Below, in pieces: positions 24,777 to 61,750 of a stretch of DNA of 64,000 nucleotides. Source of the stretch: Paraburkholderia sp. (GTDB lineage Bacteria; Pseudomonadota; Gammaproteobacteria; Burkholderiales; Burkholderiaceae); contig SCRN01000031.1 in NCBI GenBank assembly GCA_004322045.1, positions 62,001-126,000 on the forward strand. Direction: 5' to 3'. The notes under the pieces are model-generated. The model saw nothing but the letters and a program-made list of their open reading frames with translations. It had not been told where the DNA came from and did not search any database. Within the stretch, counting starts at the first letter, position 1; each line of letters begins with the position of its first letter. The translations under genes were made by a program, and so were the position numbers.

Positions 24777-24901
24777 AAAACGCGACATGGATCGCCGATA
24801 TGCTCGGCGCTCCCGATTCATGACAATGCATCCCAGCAGCGATAGATCGATTGGCGACCCCTGTCAGCCGGTCCCGAATCTACGCGTCTTGGAGCATGGA
24901 C

Positions 24902-25738
24902 ATGGATACCACCGCATTTGCAGAAGTCGAACGTCTCACACCGCGCGCAGCGCACACGCAAGTGGCTGGGGCATCCCCGATCGCATGGCTCAAGCCGCAA
25001 CAGGAATTCGCCGCCAAGGCGGCTAGCGCCGCCGATCATCACGATTGCGCCAGTTGCAGTTCCCGCCGGTTTTGCCTGCCGGACGATTTCGACGCGCGCG
25101 ATATGGCCGCAGTCAAGGGCGTGTTCGGCAACTATCGCAAAGTGAAGCAAGGCGAGGCGATTTTTCGCGCGGGCGAGCCGTTCCGGCATCTCTACGTCGC
25201 CAAAGTAGGGTCGTGCAAGACCGTTGCGATCGACAACGAAGGCCGTGAGCAGATCATCGGTTTCCAGATCTCGGGCGAATTCATGGGAATGGATGGCATC
25301 AGCACGGGACATCACGTGTTGGACGCAATCGCGCTCGAAGACAGCGTAATTTGCTGCCTCCCGTTCAAGGAACTCGCCGCGGCCGGTGAAAATAATCTGG
25401 CCTTGCGCACCCATCTGCATAAGCTCATGAGCCGGGAACTCGTGCGCGAGTCGGCGTTGTTGATGCTGATCGGGCGGATGAATTCGATGGAGCGGCTCAT
25501 TGCCTTCCTGCTCAATTTGTCGAAGCGCTATGCGCAGCGCGGGTATTCCTCGCAAGAGTTCAACCTGCGGATGACGCGCGACGAAATCGGTTGCCACTTG
25601 GGATTGACGCTGGAAACGGTCAGCCGAGGGCTCTCGAAGTTGGGATCGCTCGGGCTGATCAAGTGCTCGGGCAAGCGCGTGTCGATCAAGGACCGCGCCG
25701 GGCTCGAAGAATTGAGCGGCCATCTCATTCCGCAATGA
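24902..25738 (+). CDS. fnr: FNR-family oxygen-responsive transcription regulator
   Basis: This 278-residue CRP/FNR regulator has an N-terminal cluster CASCSSRRFC (Cys49, 52, 58), the CxxCx5C spacing of FNR. A further Cys pair at 151-152 in VICCLPF sits where FNR has its fourth ligand. It should therefore carry an O2-labile 4Fe-4S cluster. The cNMP-like barrel follows, then a helix-turn-helix with LGLTLETVSRGLSKL, whose E-SR residues recognise TTGAT half-sites. The start at 24902 was chosen because GGAG lies seven bases before it. The N-terminus is about 30 residues longer than in E. coli FNR. It probably controls the boxes marked in this window. Confidence 0.93.
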   Translation: MDTTAFAEVERLTPRAAHTQVAGASPIAWLKPQQEFAAKAASAADHHDCASCSSRRFCLPDDFDARDMAAVKGVFGNYRKVKQGEAIFRAGEPFRHLYVAKVGSCKTVAIDNEGREQIIGFQISGEFMGMDGISTGHHVLDAIALEDSVICCLPFKELAAAGENNLALRTHLHKLMSRELVRESALLMLIGRMNSMERLIAFLLNLSKRYAQRGYSSQEFNLRMTRDEIGCHLGLTLETVSRGLSKLGSLGLIKCSGKRVSIKDRAGLEELSGHLIPQ

Positions 25739-44258: not shown

Positions 44259-44891
44259 TTACCGCGATTGCAGAAACGCCGTCACCGCTTGTGCATCTTC
44301 TTTGCCGAGCGAATGCGCCACGGCCGACATCACGGGCGCATTCGCCCGCGTCCCGTCTTGGAAGACCCCGATTTGGCGCATCAAGTACTCGGCGTGCTGG
44401 CCCGCAAGCCGGGGAAATTGCCCGTTTCCTTGCCCTTGGGCGCCATGGCACGAGGCACACGCGGGCACGCCTTTCTCGGGGAGCCCTTCTTCGAAGATCT
44501 TCTGCCCTTGCGCAACTAGCGCGGAGTCGCCCGCGCTGCCTGCCGTCGGCGCTTGTTGGGAATAGTAATCGGCCAACGAAGCAATGGTCGCATCGTCCAG
44601 TTGCGATGCGATCGCCCACATATACGAGCGCGCGTCGGACTCCGAGCGCTGATGTTGCCCGAAGCCCTTCAACTGTGCGACGAGATAGTCTCGCGTCTGG
44701 CCATTGAGCTTCGGAAACATCGGCGACTTACTGTCTCCATGCACGCCGTGACATGCCACGCACAACTGGGAGGCCAAGCGCGCGCCGTCCTGCGCCGAGG
44801 CGGGAGACGTCCCCAGAGCAAGGACGATAGCGACGATCGGCAACGTGGCCGATAGGCTCAGTCGAGCGGAATAACGCGACAGTCGTTTCAT
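44259..44891 (-). CDS. Dihaem cytochrome c4-like protein
   Basis: This 210-residue periplasmic dihaem cytochrome has a signal peptide ending SPASAQ. Two c-type domains follow. The first has CVACH (C44/C47/H48) and PKLNGQ, with a Met near 91. The second has CASCH (C145/C148/H149) and PRLAGQ, with a Met at 188. Such c4 proteins shuttle electrons in the periplasm, often to terminal oxidases. It lies 47 bp after the Cyc2-like porin-cytochrome gene and is probably co-transcribed with it as its electron partner. The ATG at 44891 is preferred over a GTG four codons earlier. Confidence 0.92.
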   Translation of the reverse strand: MKRLSRYSARLSLSATLPIVAIVLALGTSPASAQDGARLASQLCVACHGVHGDSKSPMFPKLNGQTRDYLVAQLKGFGQHQRSESDARSYMWAIASQLDDATIASLADYYSQQAPTAGSAGDSALVAQGQKIFEEGLPEKGVPACASCHGAQGQGNGQFPRLAGQHAEYLMRQIGVFQDGTRANAPVMSAVAHSLGKEDAQAVTAFLQSR

Positions 44892-44938
44892 ATGCCGGTC
44901 CACTTTTTCGGTTGGTTCGATTTTGAGATGCTCGCGTG

Positions 44939-46288
44939 CTAGAACATGATCCAGGCCAGCAAATACAAGGTGTTGTTGTCGCTGGCGTTGCGACCGTTGC
45001 CGTCATAGTTGTAGCGCGCCCCGTTGAATCTTAGGAACCACGTGTACTGCACCGCGACCTTGACTTGGGGTATCGGCAAGTAATCCGCTTCGAGGGTGAT
45101 GCCGTTGGAGTTAGGGGTTCCATTCGCACTGCCGGTTACCGGCGCTGGTCCATATAGACCGGGGTCCGTGCTACCCGTCGTTTGAAAATAGGCGAGTGTG
45201 GCGCCATATTTTCGATGGTAGTAGTACGACGCTTTCGCTTTGAAGGTATTGAGTGTATCGGAAGCGTTCGTCGGCGTTGGACCCGCACCGATTCCTCCAC
45301 TCGCAAAACTCGCATCCCAGCTTTGCTTCTCGTGAATCCAGGTGGCTTGCGCAGTAATCGAATGCGTGTACGTCAAGTATTGATACTGCGTGTCGAAAGC
45401 AATATCCGTGAAGCGATCGGTCGGCGAAACGGGAATCGTGTTGTCGGGATACTTGTCGGCAATGAGGCCGTATGTGCCGAACATGATCGAGTGCGGGCCC
45501 CATTCGGCATTGTAGGCAAGCCGCCAGTACGGGTTGTTGCCGGACAGGCGCGCCACGCCACCAGGACTCGTGATGTCCTGCCCCGTGCGCAGGAAAGAGA
45601 ACATCTGGTCCGCGGTTCGATACAGGCCGATCTCCGCGTAAATGCTGCGTTGCCAGAACACATAGGCCGTGGCGCCGGCCACTTGCTGCGCGAGCCCGCC
45701 GTCGATGAGCGTGCTGGCCATCGGCGTCAGCGAGACGCTGCTCGAGGCGTAGGGGTACCCGAAGGCCGGCGTGCTGTTCCAGACATCCGACACGGTCGGG
45801 TTATTGTTGAGCGTCATGCCGTAGATGAAGTCGATGTCGCCCTGCGTGAAATGGCCGGCCGCGCGGATATCGGTGTTGTCGATGCCGCTGTGGTGTGCGA
45901 TGCCGTCATAGGTCCATTGCGCGAAGGCGCCGACTGGCCCGGCGATACGGCCCGCATAGAAGATGCTGGCCTGCTGCAGTGCCACCCCGCCGTTGCGCAC
46001 GAAGTCGTAGTCGTTGTTATCGATCGTCCGCGTATTCGTTTGAGAGAACTGCAACATCGCGGCGAGGGGAATCGTTTTCTTGTTGGTCAGCGTATAGCCG
46101 GTCAACTTAAAGAATCTGCCGAACGGAGTGAGTTCGGGAAAGCTCACGTGGCAGGCGACGCACGCGAGGCCGGTTTGGCGTGCGAATGCAGGCACTGCCT
46201 GCGCTGTGCGACCGATTAGGCTCAGCACGACTGCCACGAGAAACATCGCCCACCTCGCGCGAACCACGCTTCTGCCCCAGGCATTCAT
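44939..46288 (-). CDS. Cyc2-like fused monohaem cytochrome-outer membrane porin
   Basis: This 449-residue protein has a signal peptide (cleavage near AQA-VPAF, residue 31). One haem motif CVACH (C43/C46/H47) is embedded in FARQTGLACVACH and PELTPFGRFFKLTGY. Roughly 380 residues of alternating beta-strands then end in the terminal Phe of WIMF. This order, with the FARQTG / CxxCH / LTPFGRxFK context, is that of Cyc2, the fused cytochrome-porin used for extracellular Fe(II) oxidation. GGGGAAG precedes the ATG. A periplasmic c4-like cytochrome follows. The direction of electron flow and the substrate are not proven. Confidence 0.82.
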   Translation of the reverse strand: MNAWGRSVVRARWAMFLVAVVLSLIGRTAQAVPAFARQTGLACVACHVSFPELTPFGRFFKLTGYTLTNKKTIPLAAMLQFSQTNTRTIDNNDYDFVRNGGVALQQASIFYAGRIAGPVGAFAQWTYDGIAHHSGIDNTDIRAAGHFTQGDIDFIYGMTLNNNPTVSDVWNSTPAFGYPYASSSVSLTPMASTLIDGGLAQQVAGATAYVFWQRSIYAEIGLYRTADQMFSFLRTGQDITSPGGVARLSGNNPYWRLAYNAEWGPHSIMFGTYGLIADKYPDNTIPVSPTDRFTDIAFDTQYQYLTYTHSITAQATWIHEKQSWDASFASGGIGAGPTPTNASDTLNTFKAKASYYYHRKYGATLAYFQTTGSTDPGLYGPAPVTGSANGTPNSNGITLEADYLPIPQVKVAVQYTWFLRFNGARYNYDGNGRNASDNNTLYLLAWIMF

Positions 46289-46436
46289 GGCACTTCCCCC
46301 AAAATATTTTCATCTTTGTTTATAGGACTGATCGAATCAGCGATGTCGCCCTTGCGCATATATCTGTGCGGATCGACACATGACTCGATTGCGGTCCCTA
46401 CTGCACTTACGGTAGCGCTGAATGGTTCGACGAATT

Positions 46437-46450
46437 TTGACTTGGCTCAA
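46437..46450 (-). promoter_or_regulatory. FNR-like box upstream of the Cyc2-like gene
   Basis: TTGAC-TTGG-CTCAA matches TTGAC-N4-GTCAA at nine of ten positions. It lies about 150 bp before the Cyc2-like start and about 95 bp before the divergent gene at 46546. The -10 region is not convincing, so this is a weaker candidate than the boxes at 53915 and 53964. Confidence 0.4.
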
Positions 46451-46545
46451 CTGCCCGTTGCGTGCGGGTTAACCACGGGTGATTGGAATCGGCGTCGTTC
46501 TGCGACAATACCGGCCCTTCGTCTTCTATCCCGCACACAAACGAT

Positions 46546-47064
46546 ATGGCATCGCATAGCGCACATCATGCCCTGGGGTGGGCGGCCGGTATGACGGCCG
46601 CCGCAACCGTCGCGGCAGCCGGAGCAGCGGGGCCTTGGCACGTCGGCGCGTTGACGGCGCTTCTCGCGGGTGTGGCGGGAGGCACTGCGCCCGACTGGCT
46701 CGAAGTCGCTTGGTGGTCTCGCGCGCGACGGCTGTGGATCGCGCATCGAACGGCAACGCACTGGGGCATCGGTTGGGCGGCCGCGCTGATCTTTGCCTAC
46801 CATTCGCTTGGGCGCCTGCATCCATTTGCCGCAGCGCTGTTCGGTTTCGCATGCGGCGGCTTGATGCATCTGCTGGCGGATTGGCCCAACCCGCTCGGCG
46901 TGCCGTGGATCTGGCGGCGTCATTCCCTGAACCTATGGAAGAGCGGGCGCTGCGACGTGATCGTCGTGGCGTTGGGATGGGCCGGTGCGGCTTGGGTTGC
47001 GCGACCGTTGTGGACTCCGTTCGTCGTGCCGTTGATGCGCGGTTTGCATCCGCTCGCGCGCTGA
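46546..47064 (+). CDS. YdjM/DUF457-type inner-membrane protein (putative metal-dependent hydrolase)
   Basis: This 172-residue membrane protein has about four hydrophobic helices. Polar residues typical of the YdjM/DUF457 family are present: AHHALGW near the N-terminus, GGTAPDWLE, IAHRTATHW, GGLMHLLADWPNPLGVPW and RRHSLNLW. The His/Asp positions suggest a metal site in the membrane, but no reaction is established. The ATG at 46546 starts the AHHALG region directly. Confidence 0.78.
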   Translation: MASHSAHHALGWAAGMTAAATVAAAGAAGPWHVGALTALLAGVAGGTAPDWLEVAWWSRARRLWIAHRTATHWGIGWAAALIFAYHSLGRLHPFAAALFGFACGGLMHLLADWPNPLGVPWIWRRHSLNLWKSGRCDVIVVALGWAGAAWVARPLWTPFVVPLMRGLHPLAR

Positions 47065-47081: not shown

Positions 47082-47948
47082 TCAAGCGCCTAACGTCTCC
47101 GTCCCGCCATCGACACTCGACAGCTCGACGATCTCCGCGGTGATTTGCTCTTGGCGCAGCCGGCGATACTCCATCGTCAACTGCAGCGCCGTTTCGTCGA
47201 TATTGCGTCGGGCGGCCATCATGGTGCGCATGCGCGCTTCGCTCTCAGCAGCGAAAGATAAAACGATGGCCTCGCAGATCTGGGTGTACACGTGTTCTTC
47301 CGCGAGCCGCTCGAGCAACTCGCGCGCAGGCAGCGTGACGATGGGCGGCAGACGGCGGTGCACCGGCTCGAAGCGCCTGAAATCGAAAGGCAGCAGCGAT
47401 GTCGTCACGATCGATGCGCCTTCCACGGGTTGCGGCGCGCCGTGCACGAGCATGACGCGCGAGACGCCGCCGTCTTGCAGGCGGCCATATAGCGCATTGA
47501 CGATGCGGCCGGCAAGCTCGGGCACGGCATCGACGTGCACCGCCATTTCGGCGGACCAACTCGCCCGATAATCGAATTCTTCGGCCACCAGTTGGGCGCG
47601 GTCGCCGACGATGAAATACTCGACTGCGCCCGCCGACGGGCGGCGCGCGGCTTGCATCACGCGGTGGTTGTATGTGCCCACGAAGCCTTGCTCCGTGCCG
47701 ATCACGATCAGGATTTGCGTGTCGCTTGTTCGAGCCGGCGTCGGCAACTCCGAGGGAAGGGGCAACGCCAGCGCCATTGCATCGGCAATTGCGGCCGCGA
47801 TTTGATCGGCGCAGGCACGGATACCCGGCAGGCGTGCAAGCGCGTCGCGTGTGCGGGCAGCGGCAATACCGCGCATCGCCGTGACGACCGATGCCAGTTC
47901 ACCGACCGTACCCAGCCGCGCTTGCACCACGCCGAGTTCGTTGCTCAT
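47082..47948 (-). CDS. atpG: N-ATPase F1 gamma subunit
   Basis: This 288-residue central-stalk subunit rotates inside the alpha3beta3 head. The N-terminal helix includes [16 protein letters not shown], like MxxVA-ARL in normal gamma. The C-terminal helix has [21 protein letters not shown] and [14 protein letters not shown]. The divergent sequence and lack of a delta gene are features of N-ATPases. It is the last gene of the nine-gene operon, overlapping atpA by 4 bp. Confidence 0.9.
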
Positions 47949-49546
47949 GAAGTGCTCCGATCTGGCGGGTTTTGCTCGCTCGTTGGGCTCGGCTGGATTG
48001 GCGGACTTGGCGGGCTTTGTGCGATGCGAGGCACGAGGTCCCGCACGACGCCGATCAGCATTGCGCGATCATCGGGCTGCAATTGCGCGCCGTGTTGCAG
48101 CGCCTGGCCCAACTTTGCTGCAATGCCGATGGCATCCAGGCGCGCGGGAAGCGCGTCGCGCACTTGCGCAACGGCCGCGTTCGGGCTTGCGTCGAACACG
48201 CCCTCGGCCAGGGCAAGCAACAAGGCAATTTCCCCGATCGGGCGCAGCGGCGAGAACCGCGGCTGGGCGATGAGTGCACGGATGCGTTCGCCGCGCGCGA
48301 TCTGCGCCTTCAGGCGCGCATCGCTCAAGCCGCCGAAGCGCGTGAACATTTCGAGTTCGAGGAACTGCGCGTAATCGAGCCGCAACCGCCCGGAAGCGGC
48401 GCGCAACGCCGGAAGCTGCGCTTTGCCGCCTACGCGGCTCACACTGAGCCCGACATCGATCGCGGGCCGCTGATTCGCTGCGAACAAGCGCGCATCGAGC
48501 ACGATCTGTCCGTCCGTGATCGAGATCAGATTGGTGGGGATGTAAGCGGCCAAATTCCCTGCGTCGGTCTCGGCGATCGGCATGGCCGTGAGCGAGCCGC
48601 CACCGCGCTCCGAACAGAGCTTCGCCGCACGTTCGAGCAAACGAGCATGCAAGTAGAAGATATCGCCGGGATAGGCTTCCCGCCCGGGCGGTGCGCGCGT
48701 GAGCAGCGACAGTTCGCGATGCGTCGCGGCGTGCTTGGTCAGATCGTCGATCACGACGAGTGCATGCCCGCCGCGGTCTCTGAAATATTCGGCAATGCTG
48801 AACGCCGCGAACGGCGCGATCCATTGGAGGCCAGGCGGATCCGACGCAGATGCGACGACGAACACGCAACGCTCCGGCGCGCCGTGCTTGCGGACCGCAT
48901 CGATCACGCGCTCGACGGCCGTCGCCCGTTGGCCGATGGCGACATAGACGCAAACCACGTCGGAATGTTTTTGATTGACGATCGTATCGATCGCAATCGA
49001 AGTCTTTCCCGTCGCGCGATCGCCGATAATCAGTTCGCGTTGCCCGCGGCCGATGGCGAACAATGCGTCGATCAGGAGAATGCCGGTTTCGATCGGCTCG
49101 GATACCAGCTCGCGTTCGATGATCGCAGGCGCTGGGCGCTCGATCGGGAGCGAGAGCGGCGCGTGTATCGCTTCGCCGCCATCGAGCGGCCTGCCGAGGG
49201 GATCGACGATTCGGCCCAGCATGCCCGATCCGACCGGCACTTCGACCACGCGTCCGGTACCCAGCACGCGCGAACCGGCGGCGATGCCTGCGCAGCTATC
49301 GAGCAGCACGCAGCTCAACGTATCGACATCGAGTTCGAGCGCGAAGCCGAACTGCCCGCCGTCGAATTGCAGCAGCTCGTTCAAGCGCACGTGCGGCAGC
49401 CCGCTCACGCGTGCGATGCCGTCCGCTACGTGTTCGACGCGCCCGACGATTTGCGTCTGCGGCGCGAGGCTGAGCCGTGCCAGCGCGCTCCTGCCGCGCA
49501 CGAGCCAAGCCCCTTCGGCGGTTTCAGGCGTGGAATTCGTCGTCAT
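47945..49546 (-). CDS. atpA: N-ATPase F1 alpha subunit
   Basis: This 533-residue nucleotide-binding subunit has Walker [24 protein letters not shown] and [20 protein letters not shown], and the arginine-finger region [13 protein letters not shown]. The N-terminal region is shorter than in ordinary AtpA, as expected for an enzyme without a delta subunit. It overlaps atpF by 23 bp and atpG by 4 bp. The C-terminal tail is Pro/Ser-rich. Confidence 0.93.
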
Positions 49547-50276
49547 GGGACAAGAGCTCGGCCTTCAGCGTTTCTAGATCGTGCCGGAAGCTGTTGCGCA
49601 CGACGACATGCGGCGCGACGAGTTCGAGCCCCGCGATCAGGCTCGAATCGACTTCCGTTTGCAAATTCACCTCATGGCCCACGGCCGTGGCAAGTGCCAT
49701 GCGGCATTGCGTCAGTTCGTCGTCGCTTAGCGCTCGCGGCGCAATCAAACGCAGCGGGTCGGAGGGCTCGCCGAGGTGAAGGCGATTCTCCTCCGGCAGG
49801 GAGTGGACGGCATCCGCGAGAGGGGCGATGAAGCCTTCGACTAGCGCTTGCGGCGGGAGCCTGGACAGTAGCCGCGAGGCGATGTCGAGCGCGAATGCGC
49901 TGGCGCGCGCTGCATCCGCGCGTGCCGCGTTCTTGCGCATCAGATCGGTCTGTTCCAACGCGGATGCGTGCAACGCATCGGCTTCGGCGCGAGCAGCCGC
50001 GAGCAGCGACGTTCGCAATTGCTCGGTCTGCGCCGAGACTTCGCTCAGCCGCTGCAGGCGCAGCGCATCCATCGAGGCGACTTCCTGTGCGGCCTGCTTG
50101 CGGTCGCGTTCGGCCATATCGCGCGCCGCCGATGCGTCTCGCATGATGGCGGCCGCGGCCTGCTGGCGATCGGCCATGATCTTGGCGACCGGCTTGAACA
50201 GAAAACGCGACAACAGCCACACGAGCACCAGCACGTTGACGGTCTGAAAGGCGAGCGTCCACCAGTCGATGCGCAT
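49524..50276 (-). CDS. atpF: N-ATPase b subunit (peripheral stalk)
   Basis: This 250-residue subunit is longer than a standard b subunit (about 156). It has an N-terminal membrane helix ([18 protein letters not shown]), a long coiled coil (about 35-120), and an extra globular end (about 140-250) with [16 protein letters not shown] and [14 protein letters not shown]. That C-terminal part resembles the delta subunit (OSCP), consistent with the b-delta fusion that replaces the missing delta gene in N-ATPases. Confidence 0.9.
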
Positions 50277-50285
50277 GTCGAACGC

Positions 50286-50534
50286 CTATTTGGTGAACGG
50301 GTTGGCGAACAGCACCAGCAGCGCGACGACGAGGCAGTAGATCGCCATCGTCTCGATCATGGCTAAGCCGACGAACAGCGTGCGCGAGATCGTACCTGCC
50401 GATTCGGGCTGCCGCGCCAATGCATCCATGGCCGCGGCGACGGCGCGGCCTTCCGCCAGAGCGGGGCCGATCGCGCCGAACGACACGGCGATCGCCGCCG
50501 CAACGATGCTGATGAGTTGGATCCAATTGGTCAT
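50286..50534 (-). CDS. atpE: N-ATPase c subunit (rotor ring)
   Basis: This 82-residue hairpin of two membrane helices has its polar loop at about ARQPES (40-45). Helix 1 contains a carboxylate, Glu28 in PALAEGR. Helix 2 has the ion-binding Glu61 followed by Thr62 and Tyr66 (MIETMAIY). A Glu in both helices is characteristic of N-ATPase rings. The Burkholderia pseudomallei ring of this type has been reported as a proton-specific 17-mer, although the family was first proposed to be Na+-coupled. The ATG at 50534 overlaps atpB by 4 bp. Confidence 0.94.
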   Translation of the reverse strand: MTNWIQLISIVAAAIAVSFGAIGPALAEGRAVAAAMDALARQPESAGTISRTLFVGLAMIETMAIYCLVVALLVLFANPFTK

Positions 50535-51229
50535 GACGGTCCTTGCGATGGATGCGATGCGATCTCTGTGTGCTCGCCGAGGGCGGCGCCGATGAACACC
50601 GCCGCGAGCACGGTGAAGATGTAGGCCTGAACGGCGCCGGTCAGAAGATCGAGCGCCATCAGCGGAATCGGTGCGAGCAGCCCTGCCAAAGAGAGGACGA
50701 TGCCGATCACGAAAACGCCGCTCATCACATTGCCGAACAGACGGACGACAAGTGAAAAGGTGCGCGTGATCTGTTCGACGAGATTGAGCGGGATCATGAT
50801 CCACGTAGGCTCGGCGAACGATGCGAGATAGCGGCGGATTCCGCGCACTCGTACGCCGTAGTAGAGGGTCGCTGCGAACACCACGCAGGCAAGCGCAGCA
50901 TCGGTTTCGATGTGCGCGGTGGGCGGCTCGACGCCTGGAATCATGCCGGACCAATTGCAAACGAGGATGAAGACGAACAACGTGCCGATCAATGCGCGAT
51001 ATCGCGAAGGATCGGCCTGGATCGTGTCGCGTAGCTGACTATCGAGCGAAGTCACGAGCAGCTCCACCGCGACTTGCAGCTTCGTCGGCGCAAGCGATAA
51101 GCGCTTTCTTGCCCACAGCGTGGCGCCGACGATCACGATCATGATGGCCCAGGTGGTCACGACCGGCGCCGAGATCGAGACGACGCCAAGCCGCAGCAGC
51201 GGTTCGGTTGCGAGCGGGGAGTGGATCAT
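50531..51229 (-). CDS. atpB: N-ATPase a subunit (ion channel)
   Basis: This 232-residue membrane protein has about five or six helices. The essential Arg is in SLVVRLFGNVMSG and the conserved helix TGAVQAYIFTVLAAVFIGAAL follows. WSGMIPG marks the family's NxxGxxP-like loop. It forms the half-channels facing the c ring. It overlaps atpR by 4 bp and atpE by 4 bp. Confidence 0.93.
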   Translation of the reverse strand: MIHSPLATEPLLRLGVVSISAPVVTTWAIMIVIVGATLWARKRLSLAPTKLQVAVELLVTSLDSQLRDTIQADPSRYRALIGTLFVFILVCNWSGMIPGVEPPTAHIETDAALACVVFAATLYYGVRVRGIRRYLASFAEPTWIMIPLNLVEQITRTFSLVVRLFGNVMSGVFVIGIVLSLAGLLAPIPLMALDLLTGAVQAYIFTVLAAVFIGAALGEHTEIASHPSQGPS

Positions 51230-51510
51230 GGCGCTTGCCTCGTCAATCGAATCGCGACGTGCCGGGCAAGGACGATGCCGGCGAGGGCGGCCAGCAACGC
51301 GGCGGGGCCAAGACGAGCGAGGCCGAACAGCGCGAGCGCCAGCAGGGCGAACCGGAGCGCCTGCAAGGCGATCGCGGCGCCGATGGCGTGACGTGCGTAG
51401 CAGCGCGCGTTCGCGAACAGCGAAGCGAAATAGGCTGCGCCGACGATGCCGCCGGCCGCGGCGCCGATGGCGATCTTGAAGGAAGTGGCGAGGGCCGCCG
51501 TGGCGAGCAT
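51226..51510 (-). CDS. atpR: N-ATPase-specific membrane protein AtpR
   Basis: This 94-residue protein has two or three hydrophobic helices with short polar ends (ARCYARH, FANAR, a basic C-terminus). AtpR occurs only in N-ATPase operons between atpQ and atpB, where an assembly role has been suggested. The ATG at 51510 was chosen because AGGA lies six bases upstream and atpQ ends just before it. Confidence 0.85.
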   Translation of the reverse strand: MLATAALATSFKIAIGAAAGGIVGAAYFASLFANARCYARHAIGAAIALQALRFALLALALFGLARLGPAALLAALAGIVLARHVAIRLTRQAP

Positions 51511-51512
51511 GG

Positions 51513-51846
51513 TCAATCCTCCGGGTTCTGACGATGCATCCAGCGCCATGCGAGCCAGAGGCCGATCGCTGCGCCGATCATCAAGAGCGGCGCGGAAAAG
51601 AACACGCCGGTGGCGAAGTACCGGTCAAGCCAATGACCGATCCACAGGCACAGCAAGGTCGGGATGACGACCATCCATCCGAGCATGCCGATCTGGCCGA
51701 GCCTGGACCCGAGCGATGGCTCCGGCACATCGCGCGCTGCGCGTTCGCGCCGCACAGCGCGTTGGGCGCTTCGTTCCAGCAGATGCGAGCCATGATTGCG
51801 CGCCGGTTCTTTCGAATCTGGCTCGCGCGGCGGCACGTCGGGCTGT

Positions 51847-51857
<11 letters not shown>
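51513..51857 (-). CDS. atpQ: N-ATPase AtpQ (AtpI-like) protein
   Basis: This 114-residue protein has a hydrophilic charged N-terminus (1-48) and two membrane helices (about 53-75 and 83-105), with GSRLGQIGMLGWMVVIPTLL and LGLWLAWRWM-like ends. It resembles AtpI, which helps assemble the c ring. It overlaps the epsilon gene by 11 bp. Confidence 0.85.
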
Positions 51858-53876
<2,019 letters not shown>

Positions 53877-60868: not shown

Positions 60869-61750
60869 ATGAAATGCCGTTTGTTGAAATCGCTTCTCGC
60901 GAAGCTGGCGGTATCGACGGTTGTCGCTGTAGGCGTGGCGGGTGTGCCCGCGATGGCCGCGGAGCCGTTGAAGATCGCGGTGACGAACTGGGCCGACGTG
61001 CTGGCCGTGGCGAACGTCGCCAAATACGTGCTCGAAAACGATCTGAAGCAACCCGTTCAGTTCGTGCAAGCCGATATCGGCATCCAATACCAAGGCGTGG
61101 CGCGCGGCGATTTGGACATCATGGTGGGCGGATGGCTGCCGGTTACCCATGCGACGTACTACGCCAAGTACAAGAACGACTTGGATGACGTGGGCATCAT
61201 CTACACGGGCGGCAAGAACGGTTGGGCTGTCCCCGCCTACGTGCCCGAATCCGAATTGTCGTCGATCGCCGATCTTAGCAAGCCCGAGGTCAAGAGCAAG
61301 CTCAACGGCACCATCCAAGGTATCGAGCCTGGCGGTGGCTTGATGCAAGCCTCGGAAAAGACGATCCAAGCCTACAACTTGTCCGGCTACAACCTGCAGG
61401 CGTCGAGCGAAGCGGGCATGCTGGCCGGCGTGTCGCGCGCGTATCAGTCGAATCAATGGGTCGTGGCGACGGTATGGAGCCCGCACTGGCTCTTCCAAAA
61501 ATGGAAGATGCGCTATCTGAAGGATCCGAAAGGCACGCTGGGTGGAGAAGAGCAGATCCATGCCTTTGCGTCGAAGCAGTTCGCGAGCAAGTTCCCGCGC
61601 GCTGACGTGTTCTTCAAGCACTTCAAGTTGACGCTGGCCGATGTCGAGGCGATCGAGTTCGAAGGGAACAGCACGAACGACTATGCCACCGCCGCGAAGA
61701 AATTCGTCGAGGCGCATCCAGACAAGCTGAAGGCTTGGATGCAGCAGTAA
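60869..61750 (+). CDS. proX: Glycine betaine/choline-type substrate-binding protein
   Basis: This 293-residue periplasmic binding protein has a signal ending AMAAE. Trp residues that form the quaternary-amine cage in OpuAC-like proteins are present in VTNWAD, GGWLPVTH, WAVPAYVP and WSPHWLFQKW. AAGGAG lies six bases before the ATG. It completes the transporter with the two genes upstream. Because glyA follows, the substrate may be catabolised rather than only stored (betaine, carnitine and choline are candidates). Confidence 0.9.
   Translation: MKCRLLKSLLAKLAVSTVVAVGVAGVPAMAAEPLKIAVTNWADVLAVANVAKYVLENDLKQPVQFVQADIGIQYQGVARGDLDIMVGGWLPVTHATYYAKYKNDLDDVGIIYTGGKNGWAVPAYVPESELSSIADLSKPEVKSKLNGTIQGIEPGGGLMQASEKTIQAYNLSGYNLQASSEAGMLAGVSRAYQSNQWVVATVWSPHWLFQKWKMRYLKDPKGTLGGEEQIHAFASKQFASKFPRADVFFKHFKLTLADVEAIEFEGNSTNDYATAAKKFVEAHPDKLKAWMQQ

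Follow-up and report, generated by a model that had tools for sequence, protein, structure and literature searches.

Cyc2 proteins join a cytochrome to a porin and are recognised by an AXPXFAR[Q/K][T/Y] motif, a CXXCH haem-binding motif, a PXL motif four residues further on, a length of at least 365 amino acids and a 16-stranded porin (Keffer et al. 2021, PMC8406198). In the rus operon of Acidithiobacillus, the gene for such a fused monohaem cytochrome-porin (cyc2, Cluster 2) is directly followed by that of a cytochrome c4 (cyc1; gene order in PMC10654088). The available text of the same paper (Li et al. 2023) links Acidithiobacillus Cyc2 to homologues in Burkholderiales, among others, in a network cut at 35% identity, and names these lineages for Cyc1 too. 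In mine drainage, a Burkholderiales genome has been reported to carry a Cyc2-like gene alongside form I RuBisCO and sox genes (PMC8357290), and work on rock weathering mentions putative iron oxidisers among Cupriavidus and Burkholderiales (PMC7767972). Whether Cyc2 homologues in bacteria not known as iron oxidisers do oxidise iron is posed as an open question in print (PMC8406198). Here we analysed 64,000 nucleotides of a Paraburkholderia sp. genome (contig SCRN01000031.1, positions 62,001 to 126,000; hereafter the window), which encode a Cyc2-like protein (P0001) followed by a dihaem c4-like protein (P0002).

Judged from its sequence, the locus is a cyc2-cyc1-like pair that lacks cox and rus genes, because P0001 is homologous to the cytochrome-porin and P0002 is 36.3% and 39.9% identical to the c4 found after cyc2 in two Acidithiobacillus-type rus operons (L216 and L221, respectively). 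The homologues of Li et al. belong to the same bacterial order and the same two protein families and appear there as order-level network nodes; the window locus, its Paraburkholderia clade, its cbb operon and the promoter boxes described below were not met in the available text of that paper. Nor was the locus met in the accessible literature on Cyc2 in Paraburkholderia, in Burkholderia, or in Burkholderiaceae together with RuBisCO. The first-pass annotation of this DNA had proposed that a role here would extend the family beyond classical iron oxidisers. Burkholderia and Burkholderiales homologues are already in print (PMC8406198, PMC10654088), so that this proposal is not supported: the family is known outside classical iron oxidisers, and what is new is this locus as a further member.

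The open reading frame (ORF) of P0001 is intact, with an ATG start, a single CXXCH and a C-terminus (...YLLAWIMF) ending in Phe. Its hydrophobic leader closes with AQA, in keeping with the AXA rule of signal peptidase, and is followed by VPAFARQTGLACVACHVSFPELTPFGRFFK. All of the published Cyc2 features were found in P0001: the AXPXFAR[Q/K][T/Y] motif, the single CXXCH, the PXL spacing, the length (449 versus at least 365 residues) and the barrel, which the AlphaFold model (per-residue confidence, pLDDT, 87.6 overall and below 50 for residues 27-38) places as a 16-stranded porin after the haem domain. P0001 also aligned over its full length with the Cyc2 homologues of four rusticyanin operons (29.8-35.7% identity, E 1e-43 to 4e-79), and R256, D295, D299 and E320 are common to it and all four. 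Strand faces were assigned by the hydrophobicity of alternate residues; the two faces are alike in the strand that holds E320 (309-323), and this residue was therefore not counted as inward-facing. No Pfam, NCBIfam or PHROGs model matched P0001 and the sole sequence match in PDB had an E value of 1.4, so that the assignment to Cyc2 depends on the homologues, the motif, the model and the tree. These support P0001 as a Cyc2-type fused cytochrome-porin with one c-type haem in a short N-terminal domain and a 16-stranded porin, which would sit in the outer membrane with the haem in the barrel lumen. M78 was considered as the sixth haem ligand and rejected: near-invariant in a first alignment, it is F in three of the four rus Cyc2s and M in 111 of the 134 members of the larger set.

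The first-pass annotation had read the order and motifs of Cyc2 from the DNA, and the motifs, the full-length homology and the model agree with it. Its description and coordinates of both genes, including the 47 bp between the cyc2 stop codon and the P0002 ATG (44891), proved correct when ORFs and motifs were rechecked. It had named the lack of a C-terminal barrel of about 16 strands as grounds for refutation, and the model has 16 strands; the profile search that it recommended was positive with a profile of our own and the rus-operon anchors, used in place of the FeGenie hidden Markov models.

Those anchors were defined by operon context. Curated models identified rusticyanin, COX1 and COX2 in L077, and the proteins of this locus served as queries for the others. 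Three anchors (L216, L217 and L221) belong to a single genome family (15 of its 18 genomes have a match); in these, c4, a short gene, COX2, COX1 and rusticyanin come in that order after the Cyc2 homologue. The fourth (L078), from another family, lacks c4 and has a rusticyanin of 137 bits, just below the NCBIfam cut-off of 146.7. In a 67-row tree (quick search, SH-aLRT branch support only, midpoint root), P0001 fell in a six-row Paraburkholderia/Caballeronia clade (support 100) within a 14-row clade (99). The same tree, a check that the first-pass annotation had suggested, puts P0001 on a 60-row side (96) with the rus Cyc2s, and six Cluster-1-like rows separate (99). P0001 is thus not in the clade of Cyc2 Cluster 1, that of neutrophilic iron oxidisers, where the label Cluster-1-like is inferred from a motif and not from named sequences. 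We take a CHxQHFP-type motif to mark that cluster. Cluster-1-like proteins share with P0001 the haem-region motif, R256, G271, D299 and Q301; they differ in their separate clade and in that the two tested by BLAST (L017 and L075) match in the N-terminal part alone. Left out of the tree were seven near-duplicate or partial members of the first set, several Acidithiobacillus-family rows and most rows from genome contigs; the branches of L019 and L113 are long, and according to a warning of the program the Cluster-1-like rows and L019 may be joined falsely. Clusters 2 and 3 are not separable in it because the set holds no known Leptospirillum Cyt572. A separate observation concerns L217 and L218 (G448), where the c4 after cyc2 lies in several frames in both copies and the cox and rus neighbours of L217 match at full length; the split frames reflect either sequencing errors or real decay.

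The cyc2-like gene is present once in the host genome (5.99 Mb, 54 contigs). A match to P0001 was found in 17 of the 81 genomes searched (own included). Among the 11 of the same genus (own included), five have a protein of this same type, at 84-100% identity, two a more distant one, at 44 and 49%, and four have no match. Nine plasmid records matched, and a profile search of 369 genomes across the class gave matches in 65, 27 of them near full length as counted from the table. Scanning genome contigs with one short peptide pattern, with a rus-operon Cyc2 as the first row, returned at least 595 stretches, at least 578 of which were confirmed; the best 80 of these include Bacteroidia, Acidobacteria, Betaproteobacteria and Gammaproteobacteria, and one of them (L193, Paraburkholderia sp. 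NMBU_R16) encodes a protein identical to that of the same-genus genome G010. No named iron oxidiser was among the matches listed. These counts across genomes, plasmids, class and contigs make the family widespread and patchy, and the matches in 17 genomes, the identity within the genus and the recurrent two-gene order argue that P0001 is not a chance open frame. The best plasmid matches are the 'cytochrome C' genes on the megaplasmids of Caballeronia sp. SBC1 and SBC2, which are 81% identical to P0001; that of SBC2 is followed by a c4 72% identical to P0002. The Caballeronia genes differ in being plasmid-borne, with a high-potential iron-sulphur protein (HiPIP) upstream and transposases nearby. 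HiPIP was considered as a specific partner and dropped, because in the host it is encoded elsewhere (C37) and it occurs in all 11 same-genus genomes (own included), with or without Cyc2.

P0002 has two CXXCH motifs and two stretches matching Pfam Cytochrom_C (whole-protein E 3e-19); it has several weaker paralogues in the host genome, the best 43% identical. In a survey of 134 loci with redundant loci kept in, 131 had a P0001 match, and in 70 of these a c-type cytochrome matching P0002 lay within 2.2 kb downstream. Eleven of the 70 are weak one-haem ORFs (535-567 aa), leaving 59 c4-like cases; in five further loci the match lies only upstream, and in 56 there is none. The pair is present in the window and in all five closest loci. 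The c4 partner proposed by the first-pass annotation is borne out by this recurrent pairing and by the homology of P0002 to the rus-operon c4s.

The window carries a Crp/Fnr-type palindrome upstream of cyc2, and this led us to a family-wide test, judged by the FNR/FixK consensus. The test set comprised 117 loci (134 minus seven with no tblastn match or too little upstream sequence, G010 among them, and minus ten redundant at 90% identity or more). TTGA-N6-TCAA occurred between -300 and +30 in 18 of these 117 family members compared with 40 of 3,687 other windows of the same loci (p 2.6e-14), the 117 rows remaining related by descent. Enrichment held against upstream windows of other ORFs (24/794, p 6.5e-7) and against mostly intergenic windows (19/505, p 1.9e-5). 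With spacers of 4, 5, 7 and 8 the same half-sites were found in 1, 0, 0 and 2 of 117. When all 256 half-sites were tried with N6, TTGA ranked first by count and GTGA (GTGA-N6-TCAC, 12/117) second; the two had the lowest p among the ten highest-ranked, and four single-hit half-sites have a higher raw enrichment ratio. The strict form TTGATN4ATCAA was found in eight of the 117 and in ten of the 3,687 control windows. Without filtering, 24 of 124 loci had a box within 400 bp, compared with 0.55 expected from shuffles. These results point to Crp/Fnr-type control, by oxygen or redox state, in part of the Cyc2 family. We regard the enrichment as the most useful addition of this analysis and do not claim Fnr control of cyc2 as new.

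For the window strain itself the evidence is weaker. Its box lacks the outer T/A of the strict form and lies about 32 bp before the listed start (TTG, true start uncertain) of a divergent YdjM-like ORF, nearer to it than to cyc2. G005 keeps the core, as does G002 apart from a different spacer; G001 has none within 300 bp, nor does G010 in its available 218 bp. Given the nearer divergent gene and the two relatives without a box, regulation of the window cyc2 is not established. The window does encode an Fnr-like protein (200 bits, below the cut-off of 228). A promoter scan was not used: it gave two sigma-70-like sites compared with 1.4 expected, neither before cyc2, and seven terminator-like sites compared with 2.8 expected, mostly intragenic.

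The host can probably fix CO2 through a cbb operon. Its RuBisCO large subunit scores above the curated cut-off (787 versus 438 bits) and stands in a row with a CbbX-like AAA ATPase, fructose bisphosphatase, phosphoribulokinase and transketolase. No [NiFe] hydrogenase and no SoxB were found in the host genome, and a protein resembling carbon monoxide dehydrogenase scores far below the cut-off (127 versus 991 bits). A strong RuBisCO match (E <1e-100) occurs in 9 of 17 Cyc2-bearing genomes versus 10 of 64 others (p 0.003) and, among genomes of at least 2.5 Mb, in 9 of 16 versus 8 of 42 (p 0.009). Seven genomes with weaker RuBisCO-like matches were scored as lacking it, and the 17 include the host genome and G072, which has a Cluster-1-like Cyc2. 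Neither p value is corrected for kinship, and the association is therefore kept as a hint only.

On balance, the explanation that we favour, with moderate confidence, is that the Cyc2-c4 pair draws electrons inward from soluble Fe(II); electron transfer as such, as first annotated, is supported as the likely role. A small soluble reductant, most likely Fe(II), would enter the P0001 barrel and give one electron to the haem, the oxidised species then leaving. The electron would pass from this haem to the dihaem c4 P0002, the probable acceptor, and then reach a terminal oxidase; c4 cytochromes usually act as high-potential donors to oxidases. Since the host probably fixes CO2, these electrons could feed mixotrophic or lithoautotrophic growth at low oxygen, and the host may be an unrecognised iron-oxidiser because the Cyc2 pair occurs together with CO2-fixation genes.

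Several points weigh against this explanation. Unlike the Acidithiobacillus rus operon, the locus has no cup, coxBACD or rus genes beside the pair, no rusticyanin (TIGR03095) was found in the host genome (G000), and P0001 is not sister to the rus Cyc2s in the tree. A c4-like gene is missing within 2.2 kb on either side in 56 of the 131 family loci, and a strong RuBisCO is missing from 8 of the 17 Cyc2-bearing genomes. Only three other lithotrophic donors were searched for in the host genome, and formate and methanol oxidation were not searched for. According to the available text of PMC12094003, no iron oxidation had been reported for Paraburkholderia by 2025, and three isolates that oxidise iron in a nitrate-dependent way have no annotated cyc2; according to that of Keffer et al. 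(PMC8406198), large parts of Clusters 2 and 3 lie far from any tested protein, and function there is uncertain.

The strongest of the alternatives, which we hold to be unlikely, keeps the inward flow and replaces iron with another donor, such as Mn(II) complexes, reduced humics or quinols, or secreted mediators such as phenazines. A role of Cyc2 in Mn(II) lithotrophy has been suggested for Ca. Manganitrophaceae (PMC9040806), and the family is common beyond known iron oxidisers, the confirmed stretches in Bacteroidia and Acidobacteria among them, with hosts judged by lineage alone. Set against this are the four residues common to P0001 and the rus Cyc2s and the fact that three characterised Cyc2s, one for each published cluster, all oxidise Fe(II) (PMC8406198). 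It is improbable that flow runs outward, with c4 reducing Cyc2 under oxygen limitation and Cyc2 unloading electrons onto a soluble acceptor in the pore. The Crp/Fnr-type boxes upstream of many family members would suit such low-oxygen or redox control, and a c4-like dihaem shuttle such as PdsA can serve outward transfer; the match of P0002 to the NCBIfam PdsA model is weak (48.9 of 330 bits). The usual role of c4 and the lack of a quinol-oxidising partner next to the pair argue the other way, as does the Cyc2 of Mariprofundus, an iron oxidase with a potential of 208 mV (PMC8406198). A non-energetic surface ferroxidase, oxidising Fe(II) near the cell against Fenton damage or to steer iron speciation, is highly improbable: the single copy, the lack of cox and rus genes nearby and a BamE-like, non-respiratory neighbour in 7 of 45 loci (not in the window) would suit it, but the commonest partner found is a respiratory-type c4 and no Fur-like site, by the Fur consensus, lies within seven mismatches in 46200-46600.

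Taking Fe(II) as the donor, a bolder proposal, which we make tentatively and consider doubtful as a whole, is that this Paraburkholderia lineage would be a hidden facultative, oxygen-regulated Fe(II)-oxidising autotroph, combining the cyc2-c4 pair, an Fnr/Crp-type switch at low oxygen and the Calvin cycle; on a wider scale, a large and scattered branch of Cyc2 would, by its Crp/Fnr control, stand out as an accessory module for low-oxygen respiration in ordinary heterotrophs. The locus offers a tractable test, being a two-gene module with a single-copy cyc2 in a genome with a Calvin-cycle operon and with neither [NiFe] hydrogenase nor SoxB found. The genus group should be culturable and genetically accessible, and the regulatory prediction is induction at low oxygen. 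Fe(II) oxidation, if true, would widen microbial iron oxidation to a group of ordinary heterotrophs; if false, Cyc2 would prove an unsafe marker gene for it.

The neighbours of the pair are an F-type ATPase operon and YdjM-like and Gly-zipper genes. The betaine and FNR genes that the first-pass annotation placed in the neighbourhood were both recovered, as a betaine-type binding protein and the Fnr-like gene. The ATPase operon is a second one of the F type, with beta, a, c, b/delta-like and alpha subunits by Pfam and gamma by NCBIfam only, below cut-off. Its beta and alpha also resemble 'alternate F1F0' models below their cut-offs (TIGR03305, 611 versus 752 bits), and it is perhaps the Na+-type N-ATPase. 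G002 lacks it at the corresponding position, so that either an insertion or a loss has occurred.

Table 1. Features of the cyc2-c4 locus, other genes of the window (coordinates in the window) and short periplasmic ORFs of related loci, BamE-like in the one tested (coordinates in each locus).
Feature	Positions	Strand	Basis
cyc2-like gene P0001, monohaem, presumed outer-membrane cytochrome-porin fusion, 449 aa	44939..46288	-	ORF, full-length homology to Cyc2 of rusticyanin operons, 16-strand model, conservation
P0001 leader, residues 1-31, presumed signal peptide ending AQA	46196..46288	-	sequence; helix 4-24 in AlphaFold model
AVPAFARQT, matching AXPXFAR[Q/K][T/Y], P0001 residues 31-39	46172..46198	-	sequence; consensus from PMC8406198
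CVACH haem-c attachment motif, P0001 residues 43-47	46148..46162	-	sequence; C43, C46, H47 invariant across aligned family
PEL, matching PXL, P0001 residues 51-53, four residues after CXXCH	46130..46138	-	sequence; consensus from PMC8406198
16-stranded beta-barrel (predicted), P0001 residues 75-448	44945..46066	-	AlphaFold model; porin matches
dihaem cytochrome c4-like gene P0002, 210 aa, presumed periplasmic electron acceptor	44259..44891	-	ORF, Pfam, identity to rus-operon c4
TTGAGCCAAGTCAA, Crp/Fnr-type palindrome core TTGA-N6-TCAA	46437..46450	-	149-162 bp before cyc2 ATG
Fnr-like gene	24851-25738	+	
second F-type ATPase operon	47082-53783	-	Pfam; NCBIfam for gamma
betaine-type binding protein	60869-61750	+	
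short periplasmic ORF, L084	6502-7035		
short periplasmic ORF, L092	10312-10944		
short periplasmic ORF, L096	10959-11567		
short periplasmic ORF, L106	8555-9046		
short periplasmic ORF, L108	7055-7465		
short periplasmic ORF, L109	7546-8112		
short periplasmic ORF, L110	6930-7439		

Three further observations concern other members of the family. The short periplasmic proteins of Table 1 are encoded directly after cyc2 or c4, are BamE-like by Pfam in the one member tested, and could possibly be assembly or docking factors for the cytochrome-porin. The distant Cyc2 type of four other Burkholderiaceae loci (L083, L087, L088 and L089, in G006, G043, G023 and G004, respectively) lies in or beside a larger cluster. 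All four clusters encode a monohaem protein of 567-602 aa and very large proteins (beta-helix by Pfam in L083, the one tested), and three of the four have two LolA-like proteins (below the Pfam cut-off), as three of the four have a cytochrome c assembly protein downstream; this may be a separate surface electron-transfer locus. Finally, pACRY03 of Acidiphilium cryptum (L023) and a plasmid of A. ferrooxidans YQ-N3 (L026) seem to share one Cyc2-like gene, which lies between a transposase and a monohaem cytochrome. This is consistent with transfer between two acidophile genera or with mixed cultures, the sequences having been compared in part.

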